Shown here one piece after another: positions 5,995 to 64,000 of a DNA stretch of 64,000 nt. Both the position numbers and the translations under genes were made by a program. Within the stretch, counting starts at the first letter, position 1; every line of letters begins with the position of its first letter. The notes under the pieces were generated by a model, which was not told the DNA's origin, did no database searches, and saw nothing but the letters and a program-made list of their open reading frames with translations. The stretch is from assembly GCF_020217425.1 (NCBI RefSeq), contig NZ_CP084090.1:3038001-3102000 (forward strand). The letters run 5' to 3'. Source of the DNA: Halomicrobium urmianum. Lineage in GTDB: Archaea > Halobacteriota > Halobacteria > Halobacteriales > Haloarculaceae.

Positions 5995-7833
5995 TCAGGC
6001 GCTGTCGGAGCCGCGCTCCTCGACGCGCAGCGTGTACTCTCCGCTCCCCCGGCGGGCGTTGACCAGGATTCCCACCGCGCCGTCGATCGACGACAGGGTG
6101 ACCGATTCGGCGCTGCCGTCGCTCGCCGACAGGGCGTCGTAGTCGCTCCCGGACGGCGTCCGCCCGTCGGCCGTGACGTACAGGTCGAAGTCGGCGTCGT
6201 TTGGTCCCTCGAGCGTGACCGCGACCTCGCAGGTCGACGCCAGCCGCTGGTTCCACCGCCAGGGGTCGTCGTCCCACCAGCCGGACAGCGACGACTGGAC
6301 GCTCCCCGATACCGTCTGGTCGCACTGGGCGGCGGCCTCGACCGCGACGGTCACCGCGTCGGTCGCGGTCGCGCCGTCGCCGTCGGTGACGGTGAGCGTC
6401 GCCTCGTACTCGCCGGCCGCGTCGTAGGCGTGCTCGACGGTCGCGCCCGTCGCGGTCGACCCGTCGCCGAGGGCCCACTCGTAGCGCTCGACGGAGCCGT
6501 CGGGGTCGCCGGAACCGCTACCGTCGAAGGTGACGGTCTCGCCGACGGTCGCCTCGGCGGGACTCGCCGTCGCGTCGGCCGTCGGCGACTCGTTCGTCGA
6601 TCCGCCGGTCGTCGAGCCGGCCGACGCGACGATGGCGGCGGCGTCCACGCGGCCCGCGCCCTGCTCGTCGCTGGAGAGCCCGACGTCGACGGCCGTCTCC
6701 CGTAGCAGTCGCCTGAGCTCTTCGGCCCCGAGATCCGGGTTCGCCGCCTTGCCCAGTGCGGCCACGCCCGCGACGACCGGCGCGGCCATCGACGTGCCCG
6801 AGTAGTGACCGTATCCGTCGGACGGCATCGTCGAGAGGACGTTCACGCCAGGCGCCGCCAGCTCGACGGCGGAGCCGTAGTTCGAGAAGTCGGCCAGTTC
6901 CTCGTTCGGATCGACCGCCGAGACCGCGACGCACTCCTCGTAGCGGGCCGGGTAGGCGACCCCCGACTGGCCCGAGTTCCCCGCCGCACACACGACGAGG
7001 GCGTCGTGCTGGTCGGCGGCGTACTCGACGGCCCGCTTCATCGTCCGGGTGTCGCTGCCGCCGCCGAGAGACACGTTGATCACGTCGGCCCCCCGATCGG
7101 TCGCCCACTGGATGGCGTCCGCGATGTCCGACAGCGATCCCCGTCCTGTCTCGTCGAGGGCGCGGGCCACCAGCAGCCGCGAGTCGCTGGGGCCGGCGAC
7201 GCCGACGCCGTTGTCGGTATCCGCCGACGCGCAGCCCGCGACGTGGGTGCCGTGGGCCTCGTCGCTGGTGTCGGGCGCTGGATCCCCGTCGCTGTCGGCG
7301 AAGTCCCGACCGGGGTCCGATCCGAACCCGGACGCCAGGTCGGGGTGGTCGTAGGCGACGCCCGTGTCGACGACGGCGATCGTGACGTCAGCGTCCCCGA
7401 GCGTCTCGTCCCACGCGTCGTCGGCGTTGACCAGCTGGGGAGCGTACTGCTGATCGAAGCCCGGGTCGTTGGGCGCAAGCTGCGTCTCGAAGGCGACGTT
7501 GTCCTCGACGTACTCGACCTCGGTCCGATTCGCCATTGCGGACCGGACTGCCTCGCGAGCGCGCTCCGCTCCCGGGATCTGTAGCGCCACGTACCCGAGC
7601 GTCTGGTTGACGTGGACGACCGACGCGTCGGCGGGTGACGCTGACGACGCCATCGACGCCACGGTTCCGGCGTCAGCCTCGTCCGCGGCGCCGAGGATCA
7701 CCTCGTCGGGCTTCTCGCCCGAGCGACGGCGCGGCCGGGCGGCCGTCACGCCGCCGGCGGCGGCGAGGCCCAGCGAACCGAGTCCCTGCAGCACGCTTCT
7801 CCGGTTCCAACCGTCCGTACCACTTCGCTTCAT
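5995..7833 (-). CDS. Tat-exported subtilisin-like serine protease with PKD domain (halolysin type)
   Basis: Secreted S8 family endopeptidase, 612 residues. The N-terminus has a twin-arginine signal (NRRSVLQGLGSLGLAAAGG). A propeptide covers about 40-120. The catalytic residues are all visible: Asp156 in AVVDTGVA, His194 in EAHGTHVAG, oxyanion Asn286 in CAAGNSG and Ser348 in SGTSMAAP. A PKD domain follows (about 412-500), then a C-terminal region resembling the pre-peptidase C-terminal domain (about 505-605, with DFDLYVTADGRTPSGSDYD). This is the layout of haloarchaeal halolysins, which degrade protein outside the cell. Folding before export through the Tat route fits the TatA gene at the other end of the window. 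Confidence 0.95.
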   Translation of the reverse strand: MKRSGTDGWNRRSVLQGLGSLGLAAAGGVTAARPRRRSGEKPDEVILGAADEADAGTVASMASSASPADASVVHVNQTLGYVALQIPGAERAREAVRSAMANRTEVEYVEDNVAFETQLAPNDPGFDQQYAPQLVNADDAWDETLGDADVTIAVVDTGVAYDHPDLASGFGSDPGRDFADSDGDPAPDTSDEAHGTHVAGCASADTDNGVGVAGPSDSRLLVARALDETGRGSLSDIADAIQWATDRGADVINVSLGGGSDTRTMKRAVEYAADQHDALVVCAAGNSGQSGVAYPARYEECVAVSAVDPNEELADFSNYGSAVELAAPGVNVLSTMPSDGYGHYSGTSMAAPVVAGVAALGKAANPDLGAEELRRLLRETAVDVGLSSDEQGAGRVDAAAIVASAGSTTGGSTNESPTADATASPAEATVGETVTFDGSGSGDPDGSVERYEWALGDGSTATGATVEHAYDAAGEYEATLTVTDGDGATATDAVTVAVEAAAQCDQTVSGSVQSSLSGWWDDDPWRWNQRLASTCEVAVTLEGPNDADFDLYVTADGRTPSGSDYDALSASDGSAESVTLSSIDGAVGILVNARRGSGEYTLRVEERGSDSA

Positions 7834-13063: not shown

Positions 13064-13344
13064 GGCAGCACTCCATCGACACTCATCTGTCATTTCGTCA
13101 GGGCCGGGTCCCGGTTAAGGCAGTCGAGTGTTCCGACAATTCTGCCACTTCCTGAGATACGAATGGAAAACAAATGGGTAGTAACGGTCGGGTTTCACCG
13201 AGTAACGGCAGAATACCAGTGGCCGCGACGGCGCGCGGGAACCGCGTCTGGTCGCTCGCCCGTCGAATCCCGGTAACGGGACCTTTCTACCGGGCAGGTC
13301 CGTCCGCGAAACGTGCCCTCGAAGGACACCGAACGGCGAGCGAG

Positions 13345-13490
13345 GCTCATCGAGCCCGCGCTCGTTCCACTCGCTCGGACGCCGACAGACTCACTCCGTT
13401 CGTCTCCCGAGCCCACCCTCGCTTCGCTCGGTTGGACGCCGATGAGCGAAGCTCATCGAGCCCGCGCTCGTTCCACTCGCTCGGACGCCG
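13345..13490. repeat. Exact 40-nt direct repeat with hairpins, upstream of the Bax1-like gene
   Basis: Bases 13345-13384 and 13451-13490 are identical (40 of 40). Between them are hairpin units with the loop pattern tcgcttcgctcg and the recurring linkers gagccc and gacgcc. The region is open in the Bax1 frame, which falsely lengthens that ORF to 13174. The rest of the gap 13094-13530 holds no gene I can support. Confidence 0.85.
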
Positions 13491-13530
13491 GCCCGTCGGG
13501 CTTTTGCCGCTCCCCCGCCGAGTGGTCACC

Positions 13531-60698: not shown

Positions 60699-60769
60699 GC
60701 GGCGATGGTCTAGTGGTAGGACCTGAGCCTTCCAAGCTCATGGCCCGGGTTCAAATCCCGGTCGCCGCA
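60699..60769 (+). tRNA. tRNA-Gly (anticodon UCC)
   Basis: A 71-nt cloverleaf: acceptor gcggcga pairs with tcgccgc, the anticodon arm tgagc-cttccaa-gctca carries TCC in a 7-nt loop, the T-arm is cccggttcaaatcc-like (gggttcaaatccc), and the discriminator is A. No CCA is encoded. A T-rich tract (tttta) follows and may end transcription. An element with copies of this tRNA's T-arm and 3' end lies 42 bases downstream. Confidence 0.95.
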
Positions 60770-60811
60770 TTTTATTGCGAGCAATCCGCGAGCAGTAACT
60801 GCCGTACGGAT

Positions 60812-60890
60812 GGATTTGAAGTAGAGAAGACGCAGCGGCCGAGCGAAGCGAGGCCGACCGTCTTCGCGTGGTCCAAATCCCGATCGCCGC
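60812..60890 (+). repeat. tRNA-tail hairpin element (after tRNA-Gly)
   Basis: A 79-nt unit with three parts: an inverted copy of the tRNA-Gly T-arm (ggatttgaa, 60812-60820), a GC-rich hairpin core (60832-60863), and a direct copy of the tRNA 3' end (60870-60890, 19 of 21 bases like the tRNA). A second stem gaagac/gtcttc lies between. The core matches that at 63829-63860 at 31 of 32 bases, with the same spacings on each side (11 and 6 bases). Confidence 0.85.
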
Positions 60891-61235
60891 GTTCTACGCG
60901 GTTGTCGCGAACGAAGCGAACGACTGTCCGGAGCGGAAAAGGCGTCCCTGCCATCTCGACTCGATTGCTTCCCAGAAGGGCAGATTCCGTCGCGAGGTCC
61001 AGCGTCTCGACCGATTTTTCGCGTCTTAAATAGCCTCGAACGCGGGCTTAAAGACGGAGTACTACGACAGGGGCTATCAAAACCGGGGGCTAACGATGTA
61101 TTTCAAGCGGTGCATTCTGGGAGTAGGCGGAAGCGTGTGCCAGGCGAGAAGGGGAAAGGGAGACGGAGTCGGGGTGAGCGGTAACGGCGGCTTGTGACGC
61201 CGCGTCGACGACACTCGCACGCACTGCCGTGGCGA
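60891..61235. other. Gap after the tRNA-tail element, no supported gene
   Basis: The first part contains one more small hairpin (about 60900-60930, gcgaacgaagcgaac). The rest is mixed sequence with no ORF I can support. Together with the inverted-repeat element and its right flank it separates tRNA-Gly from the next gene (start 61763). Confidence 0.5.
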
Positions 61236-63689: not shown

Positions 63690-63762
63690 GGGCGTGTGGC
63701 CTAGCGGACAGGGCGAGGGGTTCCTAACCCCTCGATCGCGGGTTCGAATCCCGCCACGCCCG
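63690..63762 (+). tRNA. tRNA-Arg (anticodon CCU)
   Basis: A 73-nt cloverleaf: acceptor gggcgtg pairs with cacgccc, the anticodon arm agggg-ttcctaa-cccct carries CCT in a 7-nt loop, the T-arm is gcgggttcgaatcccgc, and the discriminator is G. No CCA is encoded. Two further copies of its last 21-22 bases lie downstream within the window. Confidence 0.95.
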
Positions 63763-63770
63763 TGCAAGGA

Positions 63771-63793
63771 ACCGACGAGCGTAGCGAGTCGGT
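63771..63793. repeat. Hairpin between tRNA-Arg and its first tail copy
   Basis: Perfect arms accgac and gtcggt with the loop gagcgtagcga, of the window's hairpin family. It separates the tRNA from the first tail element. Confidence 0.7.
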
Positions 63794-63807
63794 GACTGAA
63801 CCGGAAC

Positions 63808-63888
63808 GGGATTCGAACCCTGCCAGTCGCAGCGGCCGAGCGGAGCGAGGCCGACCGTCTGGCTCCGGTTCGAATCCCGCCACGCCCG
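63808..63888 (+). repeat. tRNA-tail hairpin element 1 (after tRNA-Arg)
   Basis: An inverted copy of the tRNA-Arg T-arm (gggattcgaaccc, 63808-63820), a hairpin core at 63829-63860 and an exact copy of the last 22 bases of the tRNA (63867-63888). The middle stem reads gccag/ctggc. Spacing to the core is the same as in the element after tRNA-Gly (11 and 6 bases). Confidence 0.88.
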
Positions 63889-63919
63889 TTTTCCGGCGAA
63901 CGAAGTGAGCCGTGAAAAC
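63889..63919. repeat. Hairpin between tail elements 1 and 2
   Basis: Arms gttttc/gaaaac and ggc/gcc, loop gaacgaagtga. It separates the two tail elements and belongs to the hairpin family. Confidence 0.7.
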
Positions 63920-63927
63920 GGCACGGT

Positions 63928-64000
63928 GGGATTCCGAAGCAGGGAGGTCGCGCGCAGCGTAGCAAGCACGTCCGACCGTGGTTCGAATCCCGCCACGCCC
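63928..64000 (+). repeat. tRNA-tail hairpin element 2 (after tRNA-Arg, cut by window end)
   Basis: An inverted T-arm copy (gggattccgaa, 63928-63938), a diverged hairpin core (about 63941-63979, ending gtccgaccgt) and a direct copy of the tRNA 3' end (63980-64000, 21 of 21 bases as far as visible). The core is shorter and less similar than the other two, and the array may continue beyond the window. Confidence 0.8.

Follow-up and report, generated by a model that had tools for sequence, protein, structure and literature searches.

REP/BIME sequences, which are moved by RAYT (IS200/IS605-type) transposases, are short imperfect palindromes recognised as folded single strands, and casposons are able to use tRNA 3' ends as insertion sites, duplicating the target. 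The tRNA 3' end is the usual attB of archaea (PMC8371274), and tyrosine-recombinase elements, such as the SNJ2 and pNOB8 types and a Haloquadratum prophage with a 22-nt tRNA duplication (PMC3119063), duplicate that end and leave the gene intact, as do the units described here. Haloquadratum also harbours PATEs and SMRs, the latter mostly targeting other mobile elements, which insert without target duplication (PMC3119063); like our units they are transposase-free, about 80-110 bp long or palindromic, haloarchaeal and present in many copies. With integrons, finally, our units share an array behind a fixed first site, shuffled units and a site folding into an imperfect hairpin whose stems vary and whose unpaired bases are fixed; the searched portion of text on published archaeal integrons (PMC9668308) makes no mention of Halobacteria.

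The locus examined here lies in a window of 64,000 nucleotides, the whole stretch of DNA that was analysed, from Halomicrobium urmianum. A preliminary description, made from the letters alone, had noted behind tRNA-Gly(UCC) a 42-base gap, an inverted piece of the T-arm, a hairpin and a copy of the tRNA 3' end, and this layout was borne out (Table 1). The single rod that it had proposed, with an outer stem from the T-arm pair, a middle stem gaagac/gtcttc and an apical hairpin, is likewise the predicted fold (-33.5 kcal/mol). Its bounds, 60812-60890, enclose a real feature, but since the spacer repeats along with the rest, 60770-60891 describes the full unit better. From the outside inwards, the rod consists of an inner loop GTAGA/GCGTG (form A), the stem gaagac/gtcttc (60826-60831/60860-60865), an inner loop CGCAG..GACC, a tandem GA/GA and the apical GCGAAGC, with a GNA triloop at 60845-60847. 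R1, a covariance model built mainly from units of the host genome and giving rough E-values, matches the unit at 60809-60894 with 80.9 bits. Its folding energy differs modestly, and not exceptionally, from that of dinucleotide shuffles (z -1.57); since the energy of this single sequence barely beats shuffles, the case rests on comparison. The original observation was thus correct, and the phenomenon is far larger than first reported.

Table 1. Features of the two tRNA loci in the window (window coordinates)
Feature	Position	Strand	Basis or remarks
tRNA-Gly(UCC), host/target gene	60699..60769	+	ARAGORN, Rfam RF00005; its 22-nt tail, 60748-60769, is the repeated piece
Spacer module X	60770..60811	+	42 bp, TTTT start, weak hairpin
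Inverted T-arm piece GGATTTGAA	60812..60820	+	Reverse complement of TTCAAATCC
Rod	60821..60869	+	Predicted fold, R1 covariance model match, covariation, tips
tRNA-Gly 3'-end copy GGTCCAAATCCCGATCGCCGCG	60870..60891	+	19/22 identical; forms the rod's right arm and closes the unit
tRNA-Arg(CCU), second host gene in the window	63690..63762	+	ARAGORN, Rfam RF00005
tRNA-Arg unit 1	63763..63888	+	Spacer, inverted T-arm 63807-63819, rod, perfect tail copy 63867-63888
tRNA-Arg unit 2	63889..64000	+	Tail copy from 63980, extends beyond the window end

Two further units follow tRNA-Arg(CCU). R1 matches the first at 63806-63891 (85.6 bits) and the second at 63926-64000, the latter being complete in the genome at C1:3101926-3102004. 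Near-matches to CGAGCGAAGCGAG number eight in the window against 0.8 expected. GNA tips are not specific to the units, because GNA palindromes are common elsewhere in the host genome; composite GNA-tipped palindromes that do not adjoin tRNAs occur in the window at 1970-2330 and 13338-13495, one of them with a 49-bp direct repeat, 106 bp apart. A direct-repeat search over the window returned a few weak, chance-level repeats and a single strong one, at 13338-13386, within a composite palindrome away from tRNAs.

To survey the host genome (G000), we located the tRNA genes and read the DNA downstream of them, using the stretches around tRNAs together with model matches. At 21 of the 48 tRNAs, a copy of the gene's own 22-nt tail (at least 17/22 within 700 bp) was present, whereas the tail of another tRNA was found under the same criteria in only 4.3% of trials; tails are therefore far more frequent than chance, a point on which the preliminary description had staked its reading. 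Spacer, inverted T-arm and rod lie between tRNA and tail copy in these units. Variant units occur at tRNA-Ala(CGC), at tRNA-Ala(GGC) and as a third repeat behind tRNA-Arg(CCU), where only the 3' part of the acceptor/T-stem is repeated and inverted around a GCGAAGCC..GGCTTCGC hairpin. A rod core of the same kind is also found on contig C2 (193130-193185, L210), with no tRNA found adjoining it.

The units extend throughout the class. R1 matched 37 of 40 relatives, 288 of 292 genomes of Halobacteria, all but G032, G049, G081 and G292, and, in a sample of the phylum, 5/5 Halobacteria and 1/36 others, the last marginally; most of the genomes compared are single representatives of their species, and several loci were picked as best-scoring. 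A specific DNA pattern gave at least 120 matches in named prokaryotic genomes, and all 80 of the matches listed were haloarchaeal. The preliminary description had also staked its reading on an association of genome-wide matches with tRNA genes, and this association held: 107 of 122 pattern matches lie behind a complete same-strand tRNA, with a median of 64 bp from tRNA end to core, and several of the remaining 15 are cut by the end of the locus. Nearly all examined model matches in genomes G012 and G034 likewise follow a tRNA, whose tail is in most cases repeated. Units are found directly behind tRNAs of almost all isotypes, in numbers of 0-4 per tRNA and at times as tandem arrays, and their presence and sequence vary between congeners. 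The same specific pattern gave no match in 2.9 million viral contigs; a looser one gave 120 chance matches there, and none of the 80 checked fitted the covariance model. In the Rfam search the tRNA alone matched and no other family did, and the open-access literature searched yielded no description of the layout. At L354 we observed an orphan unit without a nearby tRNA, apparently carrying a full inverted tRNA-Glu tail.

The extent of the copied tail is sharply defined. Among 107 pattern-selected units, identity to the tRNA stays high between G52/53 and base 73 and past the tRNA end declines first to about 0.5 and then to 0.35-0.4, the left edge of this profile being partly set by the search pattern. 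In pattern-selected units, the tail was 95% identical to that of the own tRNA and 68% identical to those of other isoacceptors. In a larger set of 325 units, selected by at least 16 tail matches, the 22 tail positions were 0.87-0.98 identical and 178 copies were perfect; every unit of this set is bounded by the 22-nt duplication, a direct repeat of the tRNA 3' end that keeps the gene intact. CCA follows only 2/107 copies. Since the copies end at base 73 without CCA, their source is DNA or an unprocessed precursor and not mature tRNA, and we rejected retro-copying of the latter. The suggestion that the element copies tRNA 3' ends thus stands as regards the tail copy itself, but as a descriptive wording, the source not being the mature tRNA. 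Of the arrays with more than one copy, 39 have a first copy that resembles the tRNA more than the last does, and 6 show the opposite (p 2e-6).

An inverted T-arm (at least 9/12) was present in 256 of 319 units from the collected loci, compared with 3% in shuffled spacers, after a spacer of median 42 bp (quartiles 39-59 across units). In a class-wide set, it was nearer to its own tRNA than to other tRNAs in 92 of 106 cases; it differs between loci, so that no fixed terminal inverted repeats are common to all copies. Where tail copy and tRNA differ, the inverted arm agrees with the former 27 times and with the latter 23 times, which suggests copying from the local tRNA rather than maintenance by pairing; strict selection for pairing of the arm is unsupported. 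At L349 (approximately 7580-7720, minus strand; assembly G343), a rod and inverted T-arm lie inside a tRNA-Asp gene, just before GGTTC, without a second tail; a pattern search of this assembly revealed no other tRNA-Asp, and the arrangement could reflect a deletion, a misassembly or a tRNA gene that is truly interrupted.

Rods were compared in an alignment of 17 sequences (A1), 15 of them from the host genome, and in one of 70 units. The typical motif is NNAGTCGCAG...GAMCGTCTNN, with NN pairs that are variable on both sides. Across the 70 units, 98.9% of pair cells are standard. Covariation scores 0.331, compared with 0.124 after shuffling of columns and 0.035-0.073 when partners are slid, the observed value leaning toward the model because this alignment was fitted to it. 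The inner loops are conserved while the stems vary, making the rod an imperfect hairpin with fixed unpaired positions, which goes beyond what palindrome correction alone would produce. Of 93 core tips, 68 are GNA triloops (12.8 in shuffles), three are GNRA and none is UNCG; the tips are thus DNA-type GNA triloops and not RNA-type GNRA. GNA mini-hairpins are extraordinarily stable as DNA, according to a passage in PMC4686876 that cites Hirao and Yoshizawa. From the GNA tips, the covarying stems with conserved loops and the locally copied inverted arm, we infer that the rod acts via a single-stranded DNA route.

We then compared orthologous loci between species, the direction of single events (gain or loss) being inferred. 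At the locus orthologous to that of the window in G003, of the same genus, tRNA-Gly is followed by tagcgaggttcg..., and G001 has nearly the same sequence, preceded precisely at the tRNA end by an extra 98 bp plus GGTTCAAATCCCGGTCGCCGCA; the two thus differ by one extra 120-bp unit at the end of tRNA-Gly. At this locus, G002 carries only a unit resembling the extra one of G001, the unit in G000 differs from these, and G004, G005 and G006 lack units altogether. In Halorubrum, 26 readable tRNA-Leu(tag) loci carry 0-3 units each, and their arrays draw on a few spacer and rod modules, which appear in differing orders and combinations. The Halorubrum rod core AGGGAACGGAGCGAAGCGGAGTGAC is found at tRNA-Leu, -Met, -Gln and -Lys, and in every case the inverted arm and tail around it are those of the local tRNA, with two T-arm mismatches at Met. 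Nine 25-mers are common to units at different tRNAs, one of them identical at Lys(ctt) and Arg(ccg). A core can thus be common to several tRNA genes, whereas the arms and tails belong to the individual gene. The comparisons show gain or loss of units at orthologous tRNAs together with exchange of modules. A separate Halorubrum repeat of about 120-140 bp (query 279-416 of L065:900-2600), 81-93% identical and present in many places per genome, lies upstream of tRNA-Leu.

The preliminary description had left the choice between a small mobile element and a structured RNA that mimics a tRNA. Gain and loss, cores common to several tRNAs and shuffled arrays favour the mobile element, and the RNA is the less favoured of the two. 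The family exists, is tied to tRNA 3' ends and turns over; that its members are mobile as cassettes is the explanation that best fits the sequence comparisons. We consider it somewhat probable that the unit behind tRNA-Gly belongs to an undescribed, class-wide family of gene-less mobile cassettes of about 70-150 bp at haloarchaeal tRNA 3' ends. Insertion would take place by recombination at the T-loop, with the enzyme supplied in trans. The rod would probably be the folded form of the tRNA-sense strand in single-stranded DNA; pairing of the inverted T-arm with the T-arm copy would there recreate a T-arm site that is double-stranded but for fixed bulges, similar to the folded attC of integrons. 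The tail of the incoming unit would restore the tRNA, displacing the old tail downstream, and slippage or recombination between tail repeats could then delete or multiply units, although tail identity could equally be kept by gene conversion or selection. Because the tail must match its host tRNA, a complete unit that moved between isoacceptors would damage the acceptor stem; exchange of cores alone would need an extra step. More tentatively, the analogy can be carried further, to an integron-like system of the whole class with T-arms as fixed sites, folded single strands acting like attC and a putative host recombinase inserting, shuffling and removing the gene-less cassettes.

Two live rivals to the mobile-cassette reading are a functional RNA and an enzyme-free mutational process. 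According to the first, which we regard as unlikely, the rod is formed by the tRNA trailer or by a transcript of its own and serves tRNA processing or regulation, the arrays changing by ordinary recombination. Covarying stems and fixed inner loops would be expected of such an RNA, as would the sense-strand orientation, a copy ending exactly at the tRNA 3' processing point and near-universal presence in the class (288/292). However, the tips are GNA triloops and not GNRA or UNCG, no Rfam family matches, and pairing is not strictly kept, as seen in the 27 versus 23 agreements of the arm. Moreover, unit number (0-4), sequence and presence vary freely between congeners, about half of the tRNAs have no units, and T-runs often directly follow the tRNA.

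The second rival is about equally improbable and holds that the near-palindromic T-arm and hairpins provoke template switching or slippage in polyploid cells, by which the tail is copied both directly and inverted and the number of units grows. Direct repeats about 90-110 bp apart favour slippage, perfect tandem units occur (L071), the inverted piece is local, and Haloquadratum is documented to undergo repeat-mediated deletion between tRNA duplications (PMC3119063). This process nevertheless leaves unexplained a core with conserved loops that is common to many tRNAs across the class, as well as the restriction to Halobacteria and the sharp 22-nt block.

Integrated elements at the same tRNAs bear on a third possibility. 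A small element with a 338-aa tyrosine recombinase (PF00589) lies between tRNA-Val(CAC) and its unit in the host genome (C1, approximately 447000-449270; L209 1500-3770), with the distal tail copy 2146 bp from the tRNA; it duplicates more than 22 nt of the tRNA (about 32 bp by eye), has no rod, and the unit stands past its far end. Halorubrum elements of about 15-17 kb at tRNA-Leu duplicate about 50 nt, again without a rod, and appear, by our reading of the DNA adjoining the tRNA, to carry integrases. A unit array likewise lies beyond the far duplication of an integrated element at L446. Among the elements examined at tRNA-Val and tRNA-Leu, none that bears an integrase has a rod at its end, and no integrase lies within a unit. 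The Haloquadratum prophage duplication, equal in length to the unit tail, indicates that recombinases with such a block length exist in the class, with no link to the units implied. Thus, although tRNA 3' ends are the customary archaeal attB and that prophage block has the right length, it is very improbable that the units are scars (att remnants) left by ordinary integrases of decayed proviruses or plasmids, and we rejected this reading because the resident elements at tRNA-Val and tRNA-Leu have longer duplications and no rod; nor was the unit found in any viral contig by the pattern used.

Returning to the cassettes, we compared them with the systems introduced above. In contrast to integron cassettes, they have no genes, no integron integrase was found in the unit, and tRNA tails take the place of R boxes. 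Unlike PATEs and SMRs, they duplicate 22 nt behind tRNA genes, and this duplication, seen at every unit, also departs from the absence of target duplication in IS605-type elements; the fixed terminal inverted repeats of SMRs and MITEs are lacking as well, since the arm tends to follow the local tRNA. Tyrosine-recombinase elements differ in that our units are gene-less and carry a rod and inverted T-arm, the resident elements having longer att blocks. REP/BIME are neither tied to tRNA genes nor bounded by tRNA copies, and casposons, none of which was seen here, span several kb and carry Cas1 and terminal inverted repeats. The preliminary description knew of no named element with this layout and, in agreement, we found no described family that fits all tested features; an undescribed family is the best reading of the sequence features compared.

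If this is true, nearly all haloarchaea carry hidden cassette arrays at their tRNA genes, moved without damage to the tRNA, and the units would be among the smallest mobile units known. Site-specific or single-strand recombination in Archaea could be studied in them as a natural model, the many incomplete tRNA 3' ends that follow haloarchaeal tRNA genes would be accounted for, and their rapid change would make them useful as strain markers. They also bear on why tRNA genes attract mobile DNA, as the unit encodes nothing and holds only its target's own end and a hairpin. At one tRNA-Val(CAC) locus (L302), 688 bp separate the tRNA from a rod with a perfect tail copy; by eye, this stretch contains a short opposite-strand reading frame, and it may represent a cargo-bearing unit.
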